Source: Planctomycetota bacterium (GTDB taxonomy: Bacteria > Planctomycetota > UBA8742 > JACQVU01 > JANLHZ01). Taken from it: DNA of 37,112 nucleotides. Position 1 is the first letter of the stretch; every line of letters starts with the position of its first letter. Where the stretch lies: NCBI GenBank assembly GCA_024653775.1, contig JANLHZ010000009.1:1-37112 (forward strand), in the 5' to 3' direction. Of the stretch, positions 17,345-34,154 are shown piece after piece. The notes below the pieces were generated by a model. It was not told the origin of the DNA. It was given only the letters and a program-made list of their open reading frames with translations, and searched no databases. A program made the translations under genes and the position numbers.

Positions 17345-17366
17345 AACTTTCCCGAGTCCGCGGCAA

Positions 17367-17419
17367 GTTCGTAGTGACGCCGTCAGGCGTTTATATGCCC
17401 TTACGAGCGCGGTACGAGC
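17367..17419. repeat. 53-bp twin-hairpin repeat, degenerate copy
   Basis: Left arm GTTCGTAGTG and hairpin ACGCC-gtca-GGCGT match the complete copy at 27213 apart from one loop base. The right hairpin (TGCCC-ttac-GAGCG) and right arm CGGTACGAGC have drifted. It lies between the convergent DHH-like and GT4 genes. Confidence 0.85.
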
Positions 17420-17432
17420 ATCGCGCCCCTGC

Positions 17433-19723: not shown

Positions 19724-20884
19724 GTGCCGCGCGTAACGGTAAAACCAGAGCTGCTCCGGTGGGCGATGAAGCGATCGGGAAAGACCGCGGAGGAGTTGAG
19801 CGCCAGACCCAAGCTCAAGAAGCTAATGGAGTGGGAGCGGAAGGATTCGGACGCGAAGCCGACATTCAAGCAGCTTGAGGACTTTGCGAACGCGACCTAC
19901 ACGCCTTTCGGGTATTTTTTTCTCGATGAACCGCCGGAGGAAAAGCTCCCGATTCCCGACTTTCGCACGGTCAGTGGCAATGATGTCTCCCATCCAAGTC
20001 CAAATTTGATAGATACCATCTACGCGATGCAGCGCCGTCAGGATTGGCTCAGGGACGAGCGGATTGAATGCGAGATTGAGCCTCTTTACTTTGTGGGAAG
20101 CGCCGGACTATCTGACGATCCGGAGGCTGCTGGTCGCGAGATGCGCCGCGTAGTCGGCATAAGCGACGGATGGGCAACGAATGTCAGAACCTGGGAGGAA
20201 GCTGTCAGCAGACTGCGCAGCGAAATCGAGGAATTAGGAGTCATCGCGGTGATAAATGGCGTAGTCGAGAACAATACAGGCAGAAAGCTCGACGTCGAGG
20301 AATTCCGAGGATTTGCCATGTGCGATTCGCACGCTCCGCTGATATTTGTTAATGGAGCCGATGCGAAATCCGCGCGGATGTTCACGCTTGCCCATGAGCT
20401 TGCTCATATCTGGCTAGGGGAAAGCGCCCTTACGGACGTTGGACTGATTTCGAAGGCAACGCAAAAGATTGAAGTGTGGTGCGACAAAGCCGCTGCTGAA
20501 TTTCTCGTTCCAGCGCGCGAGCTGGAAGAGTACTGGTGGGAAATCCGTAATAAGGAATCGCCGTTCGAGGCAATAGCCAGACGTTTCAAGGTCAGCCCGA
20601 TAGTCGCTGGTCGTCGCTTGGTGGACACGAGGCTTGTTGATCGCGAAGTTTTCTTCGATTTCTATCATGAGTACATAAAACGGGAAAACAGAGGCAAAAA
20701 GGGTAGCTCTGGTGGCGATTTCTACAACAACCAGAATACGCGAATAGGCAAGCTTTTCGCGACGCAAGTTATCCATGCCGCGAAGGATGGTCGGCTAAGT
20801 TTCAAGGAAGCCTATGACCTGACTGGACTGAATGGCGGTTCGTTCCAGGAATACGCCGACCGACTGGGGATATACCTGCCATGA
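19724..20884 (+). CDS. XRE-like HTH plus ImmA/IrrE-family metallopeptidase (probable antitoxin)
   Basis: A 386-aa protein with a GTG start and AGGAG Shine-Dalgarno. The N-terminal 1-70 is an HTH-like region typical of this class (LRWAMKRSGKTAEEL, then FANATYTPFGYFFLDEPPEE). The middle carries the ImmA/IrrE zinc peptidase motif FTLAHELAHIWLGE with HELAH at 224-228. Members fused or linked to HTH domains act as regulators or antitoxins, and pairing with DUF4411 genes is a recurrent two-gene arrangement. The stop overlaps the start of the next gene (ATGA), so the two are translationally coupled. Its likely role is autorepression and neutralisation of the downstream PIN-like protein. Confidence 0.88.
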   Translation: MPRVTVKPELLRWAMKRSGKTAEELSARPKLKKLMEWERKDSDAKPTFKQLEDFANATYTPFGYFFLDEPPEEKLPIPDFRTVSGNDVSHPSPNLIDTIYAMQRRQDWLRDERIECEIEPLYFVGSAGLSDDPEAAGREMRRVVGISDGWATNVRTWEEAVSRLRSEIEELGVIAVINGVVENNTGRKLDVEEFRGFAMCDSHAPLIFVNGADAKSARMFTLAHELAHIWLGESALTDVGLISKATQKIEVWCDKAAAEFLVPARELEEYWWEIRNKESPFEAIARRFKVSPIVAGRRLVDTRLVDREVFFDFYHEYIKRENRGKKGSSGGDFYNNQNTRIGKLFATQVIHAAKDGRLSFKEAYDLTGLNGGSFQEYADRLGIYLP

Positions 20885-21435
20885 AGAAAGCGCGCCCATA
20901 CATCCTGGATTCGGACGTGTTTATCGCGGCCAAAAACAGCTACTACGCCTTTAAAATTTGTCCGGGATTCTGGGATAGCTTAGTTCACCACCTCGGCAAA
21001 GGAAACATCAGCAGCATCGACAAAATAAAAAGCGAACTGCTCGCCGGACAGAAAACCAAAAAACAACTAAGTGAAGGGGAAAAGGATGAGGATCTTGTTC
21101 AATGGGTAAAACACGATCTGCCTGCCGACTTCTTCGCTTCTACGGACGATGAGGCTGTGACCCGTGCGTATACGGAAGTCATGCTATGGGTGCAAAGGAA
21201 TCCGCAGTATTACGATCAAGCGAAAGCGAAGTTCGCGACTGAAGCCGATGGATGGTTAGTCGCATACGCGCTAGTTCATAAGCTGACTGTCGTTACTAAT
21301 GAACAACCTCGTCCACTGTCAAGGAATCGAGTTTTACTTCCAGATGTTTGCGATCAGTTCAAAGTGGCTTACAAGGACACGTTCGCGATGTTGAGAGATT
21401 TATCCGTTCGATATGAATGGAAAGACGGGAGTTGA
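20881..21435 (+). CDS. DUF4411 PIN-like ribonuclease (probable toxin)
   Basis: A 184-aa protein. The opening YILDSDVFIAAKNSYYAF with KICPGFWD right after it is diagnostic of DUF4411, a PIN-domain-like family. Conserved acids that could bind metal are Asp10 and Asp12 (LDSDVF), an acidic residue in IDKIKSELL and the C-terminal ATEADGWLVAYAL / VVTNE blocks. The family is regarded as a toxin partner of ImmA/IrrE-HTH proteins, presumably an RNase. The start is coupled to the upstream gene by ATGA. It ends before the convergent mtnA gene. Confidence 0.88.
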   Translation: MKKARPYILDSDVFIAAKNSYYAFKICPGFWDSLVHHLGKGNISSIDKIKSELLAGQKTKKQLSEGEKDEDLVQWVKHDLPADFFASTDDEAVTRAYTEVMLWVQRNPQYYDQAKAKFATEADGWLVAYALVHKLTVVTNEQPRPLSRNRVLLPDVCDQFKVAYKDTFAMLRDLSVRYEWKDGS

Positions 21436-25414: not shown

Positions 25415-25465
25415 ATTGTCGCAAATTCGATACATGTTTAGTTTGGTTTAGTGTAGGAGGCATTG

Positions 25466-26488
25466 ATGTCCAGCAATCGATTTTTTGTCGCGGGAGTATC
25501 TGTTTTTTTGCTCGTAATCGCGATGACTGTATCCAATTGTAAGCAAAAACAAACGCCGGACGATGGAACTCCCGAAGCCGACGAGTCGAACAATGGTGAA
25601 TCGAATCTCGTCGTCGATTTCGACGTGCCCGAGACCGGGGCGACTGCGCCGACAGAGGCGCCGGGTCTTCACAATCTGTTTCGTCTCGACGAAAACGTCT
25701 ACGCCGGAAGTCAGCCCCACGGCGAGGAAGCGTTCCGCGCCCTCGCGGCCATGGGAGTGAAGACCATTATCTCCGTCGATGGCCACCCGACTGACGTCGA
25801 CCTCGCGGAAAAGTACAGCATGACCTACGTGCATGTTCCAGTCAAATACAGCGCGATCAGTCACGAAGAGCAGATCAAGATCTGCGCCGCGGGAGAAGCG
25901 AACGAAGGACCGTTTTTCGTGCATTGCTTCCACGGGAAGCACCGCGGTCCCGCCGGAGCTGCGGTGCTCCTCGAAGGCGTTTACGGCTGGTCCGCGGACG
26001 AGGCGCGCACAGTACTCGAGCGTATGGGAACCAGCACCGGCTACCCCGGCCTCTGGTCGAGCGTTGCGAATTTCGAGCAGCCGGACGAAGACGACGTCGA
26101 GAACGCGAAGGAAACGCTTCAGAGCCGCTTCGAACCGCAGGGCATCATCGGCATAATGACGCCGACGACCGACTCGCACGATTTCCTGAAAGACGCGCAG
26201 AAGATCGGCTTCGCAGTCGATCCCGAGCACCCGGACGTCCTCCCTTCGCACGAAGCGGACATGCTCGCTAACAACGCGGACAAGCTCGCGGAGAACGAGG
26301 ATTTCTGGCCGGAGAACGACCGTGACGACTTCCGCGCGTTTGTGGCGAAGTACGTCGAGGCAACCCACGCGCTCCGCGACGCGCTTGCGAACTTCGAGGA
26401 AGGCGGCGATACCTTCGAGGCTGACGACGCGCTCGACCTCGTGAACAGGGCCTGTAGCGATTGCCATAAGCAGTTCCGCAACGAATAA
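25466..26488 (+). CDS. Exported protein: tyrosine/dual-specificity phosphatase fused to C-type haem domain
   Basis: A 340-aa protein with AGGAGG 5 nt before the ATG. Signal peptide (about 1-24) with Cys25 (VSNC; Asn at -1 is unusual for a lipobox) and an acidic linker. The phosphatase domain (about 66-200) starts LHNLFRLDENVYAGSQP and carries the catalytic loop HCFHGKHRG (153-161; CX5R with Cys154 and Arg160). The C-terminal 230-340 region is helical and ends CSDCHKQFRNE; CxxCH at 330-334 is a covalent haem site placed as in cytochrome c'/c556. This C-terminal half aligns with the neighbouring 26621 gene. Such a phosphatase-cytochrome protein could link redox state to dephosphorylation in the periplasm; that is inference. 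A rho-independent terminator follows. Confidence 0.88.
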   Translation: MSSNRFFVAGVSVFLLVIAMTVSNCKQKQTPDDGTPEADESNNGESNLVVDFDVPETGATAPTEAPGLHNLFRLDENVYAGSQPHGEEAFRALAAMGVKTIISVDGHPTDVDLAEKYSMTYVHVPVKYSAISHEEQIKICAAGEANEGPFFVHCFHGKHRGPAGAAVLLEGVYGWSADEARTVLERMGTSTGYPGLWSSVANFEQPDEDDVENAKETLQSRFEPQGIIGIMTPTTDSHDFLKDAQKIGFAVDPEHPDVLPSHEADMLANNADKLAENEDFWPENDRDDFRAFVAKYVEATHALRDALANFEEGGDTFEADDALDLVNRACSDCHKQFRNE

Positions 26489-26517
26489 GGAACGAGCATC
26501 GACTGCCCGCTTTTGAA

Positions 26518-26549
26518 TCCCCGGCGACCACGAATCGCCGGGGATTTTT
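26518..26549 (+). terminator. Rho-independent terminator
   Basis: A 9-bp stem TCCCCGGCG (26518-26526) pairing with CGCCGGGGA (26536-26544), a 9-nt loop and a TTTTTC tract. It sits between the phosphatase-cytochrome gene and the next gene, so the two are probably separately controlled or only partly co-transcribed. Confidence 0.85.
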
Positions 26550-26620
26550 CATTTTTAGAAGGGAATGCAAACTCGTTTTGTGTAGAACTCGATCCGGATT
26601 TCAACCCGAAGGAGTTTTCT

Positions 26621-27196
26621 ATGCCAGGCTGTCGTTTCCTGCTGGTCCTTACCTGCGCTTTGATTTTGTCTGCAACCGCGCTCATTTCTTCCTGCGTGAA
26701 GAAAGAGCCGGCGCCGGTGAATCCGGCGCCGGAGTCCGAGGTCGAAAACATTGAGCCGGAATCCGATGAGGAAAGCGAGACCACCGGGGACGTCGAGGCT
26801 GACAAGCACGCTTCGGCGGAGGAGGAGCACGAGCACGAGGAAAGCGGCATCGGGCGGTATATGCACAAGGTCAAGGATTCGATTGGAATCGTCAAGGCGG
26901 GCAAGGATCGAGGATACGCAGCCGATACCGCGAACCCGGCTTCTAACCTCGTCGACGCGGCGAACACGCTGCGCGACAGTTTTTCCGGATTGCAGGAAGA
27001 CGTGGCGATTTGGCCCGACCACGACCAGAGCGACTTCGCGGGGTTTGTGGCGACCGCGGTCGAGCGCGCGACTAATCTCGCGAACCTGATGGCTAGCTTC
27101 GAACAGGGCGCGGATACTCTCGATCTCGACGACGCCGTCGATATGGCGGGACGCTCCTGCGGCGGCTGCCACCGTCAGTTCCGCGAAGAGCATTGA
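26621..27196 (+). CDS. Lipoprotein with C-terminal CxxCH (cytochrome c'/c556-like)
   Basis: A 191-aa lipoprotein starting at the ATG with GGAG 7 nt upstream. Signal peptide ends LISSC, with Cys25 as lipid anchor, followed by a highly acidic and His-containing linker (residues 27-75). The remaining half is helical and ends RSCGGCHRQFREEH, with CxxCH at 180-184. The segment IWPDHDQSDFAGFVATAVE and the terminal DLDDAVDMAGRSCGGCHRQF are parallel to WPENDRDDFRAFVAKYVE and ADDALDLVNRACSDCHKQF in the upstream gene. It is therefore a paralogue of that gene's cytochrome domain without the phosphatase. Probably a periplasmic membrane-bound haem protein; electron partner unknown. Confidence 0.85.
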   Translation: MPGCRFLLVLTCALILSATALISSCVKKEPAPVNPAPESEVENIEPESDEESETTGDVEADKHASAEEEHEHEESGIGRYMHKVKDSIGIVKAGKDRGYAADTANPASNLVDAANTLRDSFSGLQEDVAIWPDHDQSDFAGFVATAVERATNLANLMASFEQGADTLDLDDAVDMAGRSCGGCHRQFREEH

Positions 27197-27212
27197 GCTT
27201 TCGTAGTTCGTA

Positions 27213-27265
27213 GTTCGTAGTGACGCCGTAAGGCGTTTATATGCCCTTACGGGCACACTACGAAC
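27213..27265. repeat. 53-bp twin-hairpin MITE/REP-like element (complete copy)
   Basis: Perfect 10-bp arms GTTCGTAGTG (27213-27222) and CACTACGAAC (27256-27265) enclose two hairpins: ACGCC-gtaa-GGCGT (27223-27236) and TGCCC-ttac-GGGCA (27242-27255). It lies between the convergent cytochrome and LpxL-like genes and ends two bases before the latter's stop codon. Reference copy for the family seen at 7143, 14156, 17367 and 35478. Confidence 0.93.
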
Positions 27266-27266
27266 T

Positions 27267-28196
27267 TCAGCGCTGTTCCGCCGGAGCCTGCGTTTTCCAT
27301 CTTCTGTGGAACCAGACCCAGAGGTGCGGGTATTTTTCGATGTACTTCTCGAAGATGCGCGTCCAGCGTTCCGTCGCTTCCTGGACCGCCTCCTTCTTCG
27401 GCTTGTCCCGGTCCACGAAAAACGGCTCCTCGAACACCAGAATCAGCCGTCCCGAGTTCGCGCGGATGCAGAAGCACGGAACCAGCGGCGCCCGCGCGCT
27501 CAGCGCAAGAGAAACCGGACCCACCGGAGTCCACGCGGGCACGCCGAAGAAGTCGACGAAGATTGAAATGAGGTCTTTGATGTCCTGGTCGGGCAGGAGT
27601 CCCACCGCACCGCCCGACTTCAGTTGTTCGAGAAGTTTCCGAGGCGATTCGTCCGAATAGATCGTATCGAGTCCGTTCGCGCGCCGGATTTCCTCGATCA
27701 GATTTCCAAGGTCGTCCGACACCTGCCTGCGCGCGACGACTTTCAGGTTCGATCGCATCGCGCAGGTCGCGGCGAGAAGTTCCCAGTTCCCGAAATGCGG
27801 GGTTATCGGGACGAGACCCTTCCCCGCGTCCCTCACGGCATCGTAGTTCGCGAAGTAGCCCGAAATGTAGCGCGTCTCGAGCCAGCGTTCCTTCCACCGC
27901 GCGAAGTGAATGAACTCCATCATCGAACGCGAAAGATTCCAAAGTATCCTCTTCGTCACGAGTCGCTTCCCGGCTTCGCTGAACTTCCCCGGAAACGCGA
28001 TTTCAAGATGCTCGCTCACCCTGCGCGAGAGCCGCGGGAAGAAAAGGTACGCGATCCACGCGATGACTTTAGCGACGTCGAAGCAGAACGCGGGATGCAG
28101 CCTGGCGATAACGTCCCGCGCGGCCCTCGCGATTCGCGCGATGATCGCCCTCCGGCTGTGCTTTATTTTTCGCTTTAGTTCCTTCGAAGGTTCCAC
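27267..28196 (-). CDS. Lysophospholipid acyltransferase of the LpxL/HtrB family
   Basis: A 309-aa membrane-associated acyltransferase that would add a secondary acyl chain to a lipid A-like or phospholipid acceptor. The catalytic motif HFGNWE (134-139; H-x4-E) is clear, followed by GLLPDQDIKD and the family block FFGVPAWTPVGPVSLALS. An N-terminal hydrophobic helix (about 37-54) precedes it, and the length is normal. Together with the heptosyltransferase-type gene it supports a lipid A-containing outer membrane. Start is GTG with a weak ribosome site. The 53-bp repeat abuts the stop codon. Confidence 0.9.
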   Translation of the reverse strand: MEPSKELKRKIKHSRRAIIARIARAARDVIARLHPAFCFDVAKVIAWIAYLFFPRLSRRVSEHLEIAFPGKFSEAGKRLVTKRILWNLSRSMMEFIHFARWKERWLETRYISGYFANYDAVRDAGKGLVPITPHFGNWELLAATCAMRSNLKVVARRQVSDDLGNLIEEIRRANGLDTIYSDESPRKLLEQLKSGGAVGLLPDQDIKDLISIFVDFFGVPAWTPVGPVSLALSARAPLVPCFCIRANSGRLILVFEEPFFVDRDKPKKEAVQEATERWTRIFEKYIEKYPHLWVWFHRRWKTQAPAEQR

Positions 28197-29735: not shown

Positions 29736-32318
29736 TCAGCGCGCGTTCAGATCGGCGCTTCTAACGCTACCTTCGCGTGAGACGCGCACCGGAACGACTT
29801 CGCCAGGCTGTAAATTGTTGTGAACGTCGCGAACGTCGGTCAGCCCCGTCACTCTCCGATTACCGATTTCGGTGACGGTATCCCCGACCCTGAGTCCCGC
29901 CGCCGCCGCGGCGCCCTGAGGATCGATTCCGGTGATGACGACTTCGCTCGAAGACTGCTGTTCAAGCGTTAGTCCGAGGCGCGTCGCGTCGAGCGTCATC
30001 GCGCCGTCGTTCGGAACGCCCGGAACGCCGTGGCCTTCGTACGTGACTCCCTCCGGCATTTCGACGGGCTGGTCGATCCGAGTCGAAGGCATATCCTGCC
30101 TGCCGCCTTCCGAATCGATCGCAACGAAAGACGTGAACTGACTGACGATCTGGAAATCGAGCGCGGTTTTAGTGATCTCCTCGATCAGCAGGGACGATTC
30201 GACCGGGGCCTGCCTTCCGTAGCGCTGTGCGAACTGATTCTTCGTGAGCTGCGTCGAAAGGTCGGCGATCTTGTCCCGCGCCCAGATGTACGCGATCGCG
30301 TGGGCGCGGGCGTCTCCGGTTTCGTTGATTTCGACGCGGCGACTCCAGCGCTCTCCGCGCATTTGTCCGCTGATCGTAAGCTGCGGCGGGTTCCGGGTTA
30401 CGCCGAGGTTTTCCGCGCGACCCGTGATTACGATCGGCTGTCCGACGAAGAGGTCCGGGATTCGGCTTGGGTAGACGTCGGTCGCGCCGCCTATGCCGCG
30501 GAAGTCGACTTCGACTTTGTACAGCACGGGCGAATGGATCTTCTCGTAGAAGCGGTTTACCGCGCTTTCCGATGGCTCGTCCGGGCGGACGTACGTGACG
30601 CTTCCGCGGCCGACGTTCGCCATTTCGTCGAGGAGGTAGCGGTTGACGCTCGAACCGATGCCGAAGCTGAAGAGCCGCGTATCGCCCAGCCTGGCGTCGA
30701 TGGCGCCGAGGATTTCATTGTCGTTTCCGATGTAGCCGTCGGTGAAGAAGCATACGATGCGCATCTTGGCCGAATCGTGTGGGAAGTCGAGCGCGGCTTT
30801 GATTCCTTCGATCATCTCGGTGCCGCCCAGGCCTTCGAGTCGGGAAAGATACCTTCCCGCCGCGACTCTGTTTTCGCGACTATTCGGTACGGGGCGATTT
30901 CGAAACCCGTCGGCGCCGTCGCTGAAGCGAATGATGTTGAAGGTGTCTTGCGGGTTCATTTCGTCGAGCGCGTGGCGGACGGCTTCCTTGCTTTTTTCGA
31001 GCGGAGCGCCTTCCATGCTTCCAGAGCAGTCGAGGACGAAAATCATTTCCCGTCCGACCGCGACGTCTCCGCTGATTTCCACGGGCGGCTCGATCGTGAT
31101 CATGAAGAAGCTGCCTTCGTCGCCTTTGTACGTAAGCATCGACGCTTCCGCCTCGGGCTGCGCGGTTACGAAAAGAAAATCGAAGTCGGAGTTCGCCACG
31201 ACTCCCTCGCGGTTGGCAAGCCGGACGCTCATCGTGGGCGATCCGTCTTCGTGGGTCGCTTCGATCAGATGACTTTTGCACTCGAACTTCTGTATCGGAA
31301 GCCCGGCGTCGATTTCAAGGCTCAGGCTGACTTCGTTCGCGCTCCGCATTCCCGGCGGCATGATCGGCGGCGTGATTCGATCAGCGTCCGGCACGCGGCT
31401 AGTCGGTTCGCGTCCCCCTGCGAGGACGTCGTTTCCTCCGGTTTCGCCGCGGGGGGAGTTGTCATCCCGTATCGCGACTGGCATCGCTTCCGGATGGTAG
31501 TTCGGACTGATGTAGCGCGGGCCAACGACCATCGGAAAATGGAAACGGTACTCGCCGTGATCGTAAACGAGACGTTCGACGTAGCGGATTTCCACGATGA
31601 CCTCCTGTAGCGGCGGGATGTTCGCGACGCTCTGGGTGAAAATGTTCGGTCGCTCCTGCTCAAGGAGACTCGCGGTGTATCCCTGAGCGCGCGCTTCCTC
31701 GTACATCCGTCGGGCTTCCTCTCGCTCTTTAACGATGCCGTGGATGCGGCGTTCGCCTATGTGCATTATGAATTCGTTTATCGCGGCGCTGTTCGACAGC
31801 GGGAACACGTAGACGGCTTCGATCGGGAAACGGAAATCGTTGACGTACTGCTGCTTCACCGACACGGCGGCGAGAGGTCCGGATACGAACCCCTGTACGT
31901 CGGTATGCTTCAGCGGGAACTCCGCGATGGTTTCGCCTTCTTCGTTTTTTGCGAAAAGATTTCCGCTCGTGACCTTCGGGCGATCCGTCGATTCTGCAAG
32001 GTTGCTGTTTTCGAGCGCGTCACGGGGAATGAACAGAAGTTCCTCGCCTTCGAGGATGTCCAGGTCCTTCGATTCCGCTTCGTGGAACGCGCCTGCGTTT
32101 GCGAAGTCGCCAGGAGCGCGGGATTCAAACTCCGGAGACATCGGCGCGGAGGACGATGCGGACGGATCCGGCGCGACCGAGCTGCTGGCATCAGCTCGTT
32201 CTGCCTGAGGTTGGTTGCCCTTTAGACCATCATAACCTTTGCACTGCGTAAACAGCGCGGAGATCGCCGCGAGAGCGATAAGCGTCAAAATTGACGAACG
32301 CAAAAAATATTTCGACAT
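29736..32318 (-). CDS. VIT-vWA-PDZ lipoprotein
   Basis: An 860-aa exported protein. The signal peptide ends ALFTQC, so Cys26 may be lipidated although Gln at -1 is not a standard lipobox. After a Ser/Ala/Pro-rich linker come a VIT domain (about 133-265; FPIEAVYVFPLSNSAAINEF), a vWA domain (about 424-600) with MIDAS DxSxS in FVLDCSGSME (Asp430, Ser432, Ser434), and a C-terminal PDZ domain (about 775-855; VVITGIDPQGAAAAAGLRVGDTVTEIG). VIT-vWA proteins are usually envelope adhesion or complex-assembly proteins; the added PDZ suggests binding of a peptide tail or protease. Shine-Dalgarno GAGGT sits 5 nt upstream. Neighbours give no operon partner. Confidence 0.93.
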   Translation of the reverse strand: MSKYFLRSSILTLIALAAISALFTQCKGYDGLKGNQPQAERADASSSVAPDPSASSSAPMSPEFESRAPGDFANAGAFHEAESKDLDILEGEELLFIPRDALENSNLAESTDRPKVTSGNLFAKNEEGETIAEFPLKHTDVQGFVSGPLAAVSVKQQYVNDFRFPIEAVYVFPLSNSAAINEFIMHIGERRIHGIVKEREEARRMYEEARAQGYTASLLEQERPNIFTQSVANIPPLQEVIVEIRYVERLVYDHGEYRFHFPMVVGPRYISPNYHPEAMPVAIRDDNSPRGETGGNDVLAGGREPTSRVPDADRITPPIMPPGMRSANEVSLSLEIDAGLPIQKFECKSHLIEATHEDGSPTMSVRLANREGVVANSDFDFLFVTAQPEAEASMLTYKGDEGSFFMITIEPPVEISGDVAVGREMIFVLDCSGSMEGAPLEKSKEAVRHALDEMNPQDTFNIIRFSDGADGFRNRPVPNSRENRVAAGRYLSRLEGLGGTEMIEGIKAALDFPHDSAKMRIVCFFTDGYIGNDNEILGAIDARLGDTRLFSFGIGSSVNRYLLDEMANVGRGSVTYVRPDEPSESAVNRFYEKIHSPVLYKVEVDFRGIGGATDVYPSRIPDLFVGQPIVITGRAENLGVTRNPPQLTISGQMRGERWSRRVEINETGDARAHAIAYIWARDKIADLSTQLTKNQFAQRYGRQAPVESSLLIEEITKTALDFQIVSQFTSFVAIDSEGGRQDMPSTRIDQPVEMPEGVTYEGHGVPGVPNDGAMTLDATRLGLTLEQQSSSEVVITGIDPQGAAAAAGLRVGDTVTEIGNRRVTGLTDVRDVHNNLQPGEVVPVRVSREGSVRSADLNAR

Positions 32319-32469: not shown

Positions 32470-33567
32470 TCATTCGATGGAATCGAGGAGTTTCTGAAAT
32501 TCTTCAGCGGTAGCCGCCTTTTTGATCGCGCGCTTTATCGCGATCAATTGTTTTTCCGATTTGATTCTGTCCAGCCCGGTTATCTTTCGCGCCGATGTCG
32601 CGCCGAATTTGAATTCCGCGAGCAGTTTGACCCCGTCGAGGAGTCCTTCGATCTTTCCTTCGATTTTTCCTTCGCGCTTCCCTTCGCGCTTTCCTTCCCG
32701 CTTTCCTTCCCGAATTCCTTTTTTGAAGAATTCGCGTTTTTCAGCTTCCCAGTATTTGTTCAGTGTTTTCATTCCGATTTCCCCCACTTTTTTCGTCAAT
32801 TTCTTTTTCGCGAGCGTTCTGAGCGTCTCCTTCTTCAAATGCATCGCAGAGTAAGCGTACTTCAACGCCATCGAGATCGCGCGTTCGTCCTCGATTCCCT
32901 TCAGACGATCAATGCCGATCCCGGCAGCTTTCATTTTATCCGGAAACGAGTGTCCTTTCAATAGGGACAGGCACGCGGCGGCTTCCGGAGTTCCTTTTAT
33001 CTCTTCAAACCGCATTTTGGGGAGATTCAGGAGTATCGGGATAGATTCATCAAGATATTCGATCAGTTTTCTGTCCTCGTCCGGAAAAAGTTTCGAAAGT
33101 CGTAAATCGCCGGCGATCTTTCGCTTCCCGTTATAAACGATGAAAACATAAATTCGCGGGAGCTTCTTTACCCGAACTCCCTTCGCGAGCATCTCGCTTA
33201 CGTGTCGATCCCATATTCTAATCTTGTACTTCAGAATCCTTAGCATGACCAGGACTTCAAGCTGACTGCTGAACTCGAACAGAAAGTAGATCAGCGCTTT
33301 TTCTTTCTTCCCCTCCGCGGAATATAGAAGGTCAGACTCCGAACCGCGTAGTTCCTTGTCCACAAACGATCCCTGCTCGAGCTTGAAACTCGATCTCCTG
33401 ATGGTTTCCGCGAGCCCCTTCGGTCCGTAGTTCTCGACAAGCGACCATGCGTTCTCATTCACCTCGAACACGCCTTTCGCGTACAGATCGTGAATCTTGT
33501 GGACGGATTCCTCTCCGCCTTCCTCCGGATTCCCGTGCTCGGCTTCTTCTGGCGTTTCGTCGGGCAT
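32470..33567 (-). CDS. Rpn family PD-(D/E)XK nuclease / putative transposase
   Basis: A 365-aa protein whose ATG overlaps the pyrE stop (TAATG), so translation is coupled; a further in-frame ATG lies upstream inside pyrE. The N-terminal 40-200 region is of the Rpn/PD-(D/E)XK type: KGLAETIRRSSFKLEQGSFVD, then ESDLLYSA (Asp79) and YFLFEFSSQ (Glu98). The usual E-x-Q third position reads S100, which may weaken catalysis. At 285-308 is a run of REGK/IEGK tetrapeptides in tandem, a typical charged tail of this family. Rpn proteins promote RecA-independent recombination and in some cases abortive infection. Its place in a housekeeping operon is odd. Confidence 0.85.
   Translation of the reverse strand: MPDETPEEAEHGNPEEGGEESVHKIHDLYAKGVFEVNENAWSLVENYGPKGLAETIRRSSFKLEQGSFVDKELRGSESDLLYSAEGKKEKALIYFLFEFSSQLEVLVMLRILKYKIRIWDRHVSEMLAKGVRVKKLPRIYVFIVYNGKRKIAGDLRLSKLFPDEDRKLIEYLDESIPILLNLPKMRFEEIKGTPEAAACLSLLKGHSFPDKMKAAGIGIDRLKGIEDERAISMALKYAYSAMHLKKETLRTLAKKKLTKKVGEIGMKTLNKYWEAEKREFFKKGIREGKREGKREGKREGKIEGKIEGLLDGVKLLAEFKFGATSARKITGLDRIKSEKQLIAIKRAIKKAATAEEFQKLLDSIE
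32644..32715. repeat. 12-bp tandem coding repeats in the Rpn gene
   Basis: Codes for about six tetrapeptide units (REGK, IEGK). On the plus strand the pattern is TTCCTTCGCGCT-like and runs of it are nearly identical. Copy number could vary by slippage without a frame change, since each unit is 12 bp. Confidence 0.8.
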
Positions 33568-34154
33568 TACTTCTTCATGTCCCTCGACCCCGGCTTGACC
33601 GCGGGAAGGTGCCGGACGTGTTCGGGCGGCTCGTCCTCCGGATTCCATGTCAGCGGGCTGACGTGCGCGAGGTACGTGTAGCGGATGTCCTTGAAAGGCA
33701 CTTCGTCCGCACGGAATATGATCGACGCGAAGCCGCGGATGTCCGCCTTCCTGCCTCTGACGAAAGTCGCAACCTCGAGCGCGCTTTTGCCGGTGGTCAC
33801 GACGTCTTCCACTATAAGCACCCGCTCGCCTTCCAACAGCGTGAATCCTCGGCGGAGCTGCATTTCTCCGTTTTCGCGCTCCGAAAATATCGCCCGGCAG
33901 CCTAGCGCGCGCGCGACCTCGTACGCGATAATAATCCCTCCCATCGCGGGTCCGACGACAACCTCGATGCCTTCGTCTCTGTAGTCCTCCGCAATGGATT
34001 CCGCCAGCTTGCGCGTGACGTCCGGAAACGAACAGACTATCGCGCTTTGCAGATACGTGTCCGAACGTTTCCCGGAGGACAGAATGAAGTGGCCGGAGAG
34101 AAGCGCCCCGGTGTCACGATAATGCTGAAGCACTTCATCCGGGCTGAGCTTCAT
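33567..34154 (-). CDS. pyrE: Orotate phosphoribosyltransferase
   Basis: A 195-aa enzyme of de novo pyrimidine synthesis that makes OMP from orotate and PRPP. The PRPP-binding loop VLIVEDVVTTGKSALEV is plain, as are GHFILSSGKRSDTYLQ and VVGPAMGGIIIAYEVARALG. I choose the ATG that has GGAGG 9 nt upstream and lies one base after the secG stop; a Met five codons earlier (34169) overlaps secG. The gene sits in tpiA-secG-pyrE-rpn, and the stop overlaps the rpn start. Confidence 0.95.
   Translation of the reverse strand: MKLSPDEVLQHYRDTGALLSGHFILSSGKRSDTYLQSAIVCSFPDVTRKLAESIAEDYRDEGIEVVVGPAMGGIIIAYEVARALGCRAIFSERENGEMQLRRGFTLLEGERVLIVEDVVTTGKSALEVATFVRGRKADIRGFASIIFRADEVPFKDIRYTYLAHVSPLTWNPEDEPPEHVRHLPAVKPGSRDMKK

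Follow-up and report, generated by a model that had tools for sequence, protein, structure and literature searches.

A predicted envelope lipoprotein of Planctomycetota joins a PTP-type phosphatase domain to a class II c-type haem domain

We found that a gene in the 37,112-nucleotide stretch of planctomycete DNA analysed here (the window) encodes a predicted lipoprotein, P0001, in which a phosphatase domain with the CX5R loop HCFHGKHR is joined to a C-terminal haem domain with a CxxCH motif. A first-pass annotation of the window had reported this pairing in one polypeptide; it is confirmed by matches to the Pfam families PTP-SAK and Cytochrom_C_2 and by relatives in more than 100 genomes, and the finding is larger than that annotation reported. 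The best explanation of the data, to which we give a probability of about 0.48, is that P0001 is an envelope lipoprotein and a TpbA/Siw14-like phosphatase controlled by a covalent c-type haem in a four-helix bundle. The fusion gene has the following features:

25455-25460, forward strand: Shine-Dalgarno-like AGGAGG of the fusion gene, read in the sequence.
25466-26488, forward strand: fusion gene P0001, 340 aa, a predicted lipoprotein with a PTP/DSP phosphatase domain and a class II c-type cytochrome domain.
25538-25540, forward strand: Cys25, the predicted lipidation site, in the lipobox VSNC; Cys in 30 of 30 aligned relatives.
25655-26080, forward strand: phosphatase domain, residues 64-205, from Pfam, sequence and fold matches and AlphaFold2.
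25922-25945, forward strand: phosphatase loop HCFHGKHR (CX5R), residues 153-160, from sequence and alignment.
26141-26476, forward strand: four-helix haem domain, helices at residues 226-246, 260-276, 287-311 and 316-337, from AlphaFold2, Pfam and a profile match.
26453-26467, forward strand: haem attachment motif CSDCH, residues 330-334, with Arg338 after it, from sequence and alignment.

We place the start codon of the fusion gene at ATG 25466, with AGGAGG upstream. The −1 residue of the lipobox VSNC is atypical; Cys25 is invariant in all 30 proteins that were aligned in full, and residues 10-22, in the signal-peptide region, are helical in the AlphaFold2 model. P0001 is therefore predicted, with near certainty, to be an exported lipoprotein. 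Export signals had been proposed for both P0001 and the product of the next gene, P0002, and both do look like lipoproteins (Cys25 in VSNC for the former, ISSC for the latter).

The phosphatase part of P0001 matches PTP-SAK (PF22784) above the Pfam cut-off, at 7.3e-9, and the C-terminal part matches Cytochrom_C_2 (PF01322) at 2.8e-5, with 25.5 bits, slightly below the cut-off of 26.5. An AlphaFold2 model built with 30 relatives (mean pLDDT 87, pTM 0.79) contains a PTP fold and, at residues 226-337, the C-terminal four-helix bundle on which the first-pass annotation had staked its haem domain. Foldseek returned TpbA first, with a TMt of 0.74, followed by Siw14/PFA-DSP and DUF442 structures; by sequence, the phosphatase part is nearest to TpbA and the C-terminal part to cytochromes c' among solved structures. 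P0001 thus has the CX5R loop and, in the model, the fold of the PTP/DSP superfamily, together with the CxxCH near the C-terminus (in the stretch CSDCHKQFR) and the modelled four-helix bundle of a class II c-type cytochrome. The haem is predicted to be covalently attached; the source genome encodes two cytochrome c assembly proteins (PF01578).

The survey across planctomycetes that had been suggested for the fusion shows that it is widespread. P0001 has matches in 197 of 392 Planctomycetota genomes, and by a count of listed rows these span both domains in about 115 of the 391 genomes other than the source. Within the source genome's own class the fusion is rare, being found in G247, the other genome of the same order, and in G226. 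Relatives of P0001 are encoded on 481 stretches among GTDB contigs, the best 80 of which are labelled Planctomycetota, Verrucomicrobiota or unnamed bacterium. Among 145 Verrucomicrobiota genomes, the full fusion occurs in the seed genome alone and phosphatase-only matches occur in about 30. The fusion is common yet patchy in Planctomycetota and sporadic in Verrucomicrobiota. One fusion lies on a contig labelled as an Akkermansia muciniphila MAG (CAMCWI010000260.1); this label is probably wrong, the contig coming from another verrucomicrobial MAG.

The fetched loci yielded 152 distinct family members, 137 of them full length, and both HCX5R and CxxCH are kept in 134 of the 137. Contig ends truncate two of the other three, and the third is P0002, the haem-only paralogue, such that no complete fusion among the 137 full-length relatives lacks either motif. 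Since the 134 non-redundant fusions collected were chosen for having both motifs, invariance inside the motifs is partly due to selection, and the informative figure is the absence of any complete full-length relative without one. Residues invariant in 134 of 134 fusions are Pro84, Asp105, His123, Pro125 and Tyr128 in the N-terminal half, His153, Cys154, Gly157 and Arg160 in the phosphatase loop, and Tyr193, Gly195, Leu196, Met231, Cys330, Cys333 and His334 in the remainder. Conservation across the 134 fusions rules out a chance CxxCH or CX5R, and a frameshift or assembly error joining two genes is ruled out by the occurrence of fusions in many genomes, including complete chromosomes. We found no description of this architecture in the literature searched, which consisted mostly of papers available without subscription; the family, an old one that combines two known domains, is apparently undescribed. 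To our knowledge, haem-controlled PTP-type phosphatases have not been described.

The strongest evidence that the two domains belong together comes from loci where they are encoded separately. Two phosphatase-only relatives, L177 and L178, score nearest to the fusions and have an HR-type loop, and a same-strand gene downstream of each encodes a lipoprotein whose C-terminal domain is cytochrome c'-like. The two L178 genes, for the phosphatase (1767-1216, reverse strand) and the cytochrome (1219-773), share 4 bases; the L177 cytochrome gene begins no more than about 100 bases downstream of its phosphatase gene. Both cytochromes match Cytochrom_C_2 below the Pfam cut-off, one at 5.7e-5 and one at 0.0012, and both are matched in a five-sequence search by a profile built from the fused haem domains. 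In a tree of phosphatase domains, L177 and L178 are the basal branches of the fusion clade, and a second clade holds 41 of the haem-free relatives; this was a quick tree from few columns, with moderate support of 90-94 and with L177 on a long branch. Phosphatase-only rows within the fusion clade are either contig-cut copies or L063, which carries CVACH and was missed by the stricter motif pattern. The domains are partnered in both fused and split forms, which supports the view that phosphatase and haem work together; fusion and adjacency are evidence of linkage and not of the direction of control.

Two further features lie in the phosphatase domain:

25778-25780, forward strand: Asp105, invariant in 138 of 138 fusions and in 2 of 2 split pairs; Arg in 42 of 42 haem-free HCxHGxDRT relatives.
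25847-25852, forward strand: Tyr128 (invariant) and Ser129, the latter aligned with the TpbA general acid Asp105.

Residue 159 is His in 135 of 138 members of the haem-linked clade and Asp in 42 of 42 members of the haem-free HCxHGxDRT clade, and the signature of the haem-linked clade is therefore D105/Y128/H159, against R105/D159 in its haem-free relatives. Because the residues swap between the clades (R105/D159 versus D105/H159), the alignment suggests that positions 105 and 159 touch. It is possible that the family's Asp105 is a catalytic acid, but the swap with residue 159 suggests that it is rather one of a structural pair. The haem-free HCxHGxDRT proteins (L181, L183-L193 and L195-L223) are a large family of exported PTPs from Planctomycetota and Verrucomicrobiota, present as a tandem pair in one genome (L209). 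Further PTP-like proteins with the loops HCQSGIHRT and HCQAGMHRT (G042:C14 and G013:C22; L229 and L230) form a branch of their own.

The CX5R phosphatase loop had been called complete, and it is; for the site as a whole, however, the residue of P0001 that aligns with Asp105 of TpbA, the proposed general acid of that enzyme (PMC4409338), is Ser129, and hence the TpbA acid is not retained. Position 129 is Asp in 66 of 134 fusions, Ser in 20 (as in P0001) and Lys in 18. A general-acid Asp is usual but not universal in the PTP/DSP superfamily and is not decisive for membership; PTPs that lack it include AtPFA-DSP1, which acts on inositol pyrophosphates (PMC9038691). With Ser at the aligned position, catalysis by P0001 may be Siw14-like or may use another residue.

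The same position bears on the possibility that P0001 is a Siw14/PFA-DSP-like phosphatase of small molecules, such as inositol polyphosphates or pyrophosphates, with the haem serving as a non-regulatory redox or docking part. Siw14 and AtPFA-DSP1 rank high among the fold matches and, like P0001 at its aligned position, are of the type without the usual general acid (PMC9038691); the Lys/His-rich loop HCFHGKHR is also consistent with such a substrate. However, TpbA, a periplasmic phosphotyrosine phosphatase, ranks first by both sequence and fold, about half of the family has Asp at position 129, and a passive haem fits poorly with the co-conservation of the domains and with the split gene pairs. 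We consider a small-molecule phosphatase unlikely.

One further residue bears on the type of haem:

26156-26158, forward strand: Met231, invariant and located five residues into helix A; a candidate for the distal ligand of the haem.

In cytochrome b562 and low-spin cytochrome c556, the axial ligand is a Met at the start of helix A, whereas cytochrome c', which has no such ligand, normally carries a non-ligating residue at that position. Helix A of the fusion pairs with the helix that bears the CxxCH, and its Met is invariant in the 134 fusions and aligned with Met81 of P0002. For this reason we favour a six-coordinate His/Met haem (His334/Met231) with a role in electron transfer rather than gas sensing, on the strength of the alignment. 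A third lipoprotein with a Cytochrom_C_2-like domain is encoded in the source genome (G000:C89; L003:1309-1851) and likewise has a Met close to where the bundle begins.

Gas sensing, which the first-pass annotation had put forward alongside redox sensing, is weakened by the invariant Met, as expected for a His/Met haem. In a gas-sensing phosphatase, the haem would be five-coordinate, as in a true cytochrome c', or its Met would be displaced by NO or CO, and gas would control the phosphatase. By sequence the haem domain indeed matches cytochromes c' best, a family that binds NO and CO, and gas can also gate a six-coordinate His/Met haem by displacing the Met. Against this, in addition to the Met, no NO-metabolism gene recurs beside the fusion in the repeated gene clusters, which were the only ones inspected. 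We regard control by gas as quite unlikely.

Downstream of the fusion gene lies the gene for P0002. The features that bear on it, the first of them within the fusion gene, are as follows:

26306-26311, forward strand: Trp281-Pro282 insertion of the fusion, also in P0002 and a gap in nearly all other fusions.
26515-26557, forward strand: intrinsic-terminator-like hairpin with T-rich tail, between the two genes.
26609-26614, forward strand: Shine-Dalgarno-like AAGGAG of P0002, read in the sequence.
26621-27196, forward strand: haem-only paralogue P0002, a 191-aa acidic lipoprotein with a class II c-type cytochrome domain.
26693-26695, forward strand: Cys25 of P0002, predicted lipidation site in ISSC, from sequence.
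26861-26863, forward strand: Met81 of P0002, aligned with Met231 of the fusion.
27158-27172, forward strand: haem attachment motif CGGCH of P0002, from sequence and alignment.

We place the start of P0002 at ATG 26621, after AAGGAG, and not at TTG 26513 of the mechanical ORF. The earlier description of its product as an acidic lipoprotein with the same haem domain stands: Cytochrom_C_2 is matched in both proteins, and in P0002 the match is above the 26.5-bit cut-off (1.1e-5, 26.8 bits). The AlphaFold2 model of the P0002 haem domain has a pLDDT of 92.5 and matches cytochromes cb562 and c' with TM-scores of 0.6-0.7 and a probability of 1.00; the best E-value is 4e-3, and none of the structures matched by this isolated domain reaches 0.001. 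Within the source genome, P0002 matches the P0001 haem domain best (35% identity, 1.9e-20), whereas identity to the haem domains of other fusions is 12-25%. No strong match to P0002 was found in 19 other genomes of the class. From the nearest match and the shared Trp-Pro insertion, P0002 is most simply read as a lineage-local partial duplication.

The hairpin between the genes has 13 pairs, with −27.1 kcal/mol for 26505-26565 and a z-score of −4.3. Since it separates the genes, P0002 may be transcribed from a promoter of its own; a consensus search found none. This bears on the proposal that the two genes are a single module, and specifically on a two-gene redox relay in which P0002 would be dedicated to giving the fusion electrons or taking them from it. 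The genes are in tandem on the same strand and their products share 35% identity in the haem domain as well as the Trp-Pro insertion. However, they are separated by the terminator-like hairpin, and beside the other fusions, many of which have short flanks, no P0002-type gene was detected, which argues that a dedicated partner is not a feature of the family. With P0002 looking locally duplicated, the two genes need not form one module, and we think a dedicated relay decidedly unlikely.

Just 3′ of P0002, at 27212-27266, lies a dispersed palindromic repeat of about 54 bases (TTCGTAGT...GACGCCGTAAGGCGTTTATATGCCCTTACGGGC...), found also at 17366-17426; the genome has 64 listed matches, and contigs C238, C301 and C164 carry some of them in tandem. 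The next gene (27267-28196, reverse strand) is convergent with P0002 and encodes a lipid A biosynthesis acyltransferase. Elsewhere in the window, an IrrE-like peptidase M78 gene overlaps a DUF4411 gene by 4 bases (19724-21435), a pair that looks toxin-antitoxin-like; 29736-32318 (reverse strand) encodes an 860-aa protein with VIT, von Willebrand A and C-terminal PDZ domains; and 32470-33648 (reverse strand) encodes a YhgA-like putative transposase family protein. Clustering of 64 non-redundant fusion loci with a crude ORF caller revealed no conserved operon partner beyond generic ABC ATPases. Hence the fusion is a stand-alone gene, and its neighbours give no clue to the substrate.

It is very improbable that P0001 is a thiol redox or sulfur enzyme in which the PTP-fold Cys carries a persulfide, as in DUF442/Blh sulfurtransferases, and the haem takes the electrons: periplasmic sulfur enzymes typically pair a reactive Cys with a c-type haem, and P0001 has weak matches to BLH_phosphatase/TIGR01244/Blh and to the DUF442 structure 3gxh, but the profiles are below cut-off (NF040641, 16.7 bits versus 625; TIGR01244, 14.3 versus 85.85; PF04273, 16.3 versus 26.1), the PTP-SAK and TpbA matches are stronger, and every fusion has the canonical phosphate-binding CX5R loop, the Blh/DUF442 loop being shorter.

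In the preferred reading of P0001 as a haem-controlled phosphatase, the haem would be six-coordinate through His334 and Met231, would exchange electrons with periplasmic redox partners, and would report how oxidised or reduced the envelope is. Activity of the catalytic Cys154 on a phosphorylated envelope substrate would depend on the oxidation state of the haem or on a slight shift of the bundle; P0002 may pass electrons to the fusion or compete with it. More tentatively, the family could be a widespread, so far undescribed class of envelope signalling enzyme in which a c-type haem switches a dual-specificity phosphatase by redox, so that Planctomycetota read respiratory or redox conditions outside the cytoplasm through dephosphorylation of an envelope phosphoprotein or phospho-ligand.

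Little is understood of how proteins are phosphorylated in the periplasm and how this is controlled. The fusion suggests that Planctomycetota couple a periplasmic phosphatase to envelope redox state, and a haem-phosphatase lipoprotein conserved in a large share of one phylum is a testable candidate for redox control of envelope dephosphorylation. Cultured sources of the fusion are Singulisphaera acidiphila, Tautonia and Pla163, and the loci with two separate genes are a natural means of comparing each domain with and without its partner.

Among known proteins, the best Pfam matches of the phosphatase domain, PTP-SAK (PF22784) and Tc-R-P (PF22785), are models named from conflict or toxin contexts; the fusion locus holds no pointer to such a system, and we rejected a toxin or conflict role. 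The haem-free HCxHGxDRT PTPs have a homologous phosphatase domain, often with a lipobox, but form a separate clade with R105/D159 rather than D105/H159, and no cytochrome is fused to them or found within their short flanks. Siw14 and AtPFA-DSP1 share the PTP fold and the lack of a canonical WPD-loop acid at the aligned position, but are eukaryotic and haem-free, with 15-17% identity over the fold alignment. The class II cytochromes (c' and c556) and b562/cb562 likewise carry a C-terminal CxxCHxxxR in the last helix of a four-helix bundle, but are stand-alone proteins, whereas in P0001 the domain is joined to a phosphatase; in its invariant helix A Met the fusion resembles b562 and c556, not c'. 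The closest comparison is with TpbA (PA3885), the periplasmic dual-specificity tyrosine phosphatase of Pseudomonas aeruginosa, which is the best sequence match (6e-6; profile match to 2m3v, 1e-10), is likewise exported, and has an HCxHGxxR loop with identical CX5R spacing. TpbA differs in being a soluble, single-domain protein with no haem domain, where P0001 is a two-domain lipoprotein, in its loop (HGNNRT versus HGKHRG), and in having Asp105 where P0001 has Ser129. TpbA removes phosphate from the periplasmic portion of TpbB and thereby lowers c-di-GMP (PMC2691606). By analogy with its action on TpbB/YfiN, we take TpbA as a possible working analogue of the fusion, which is not a claim of membership.
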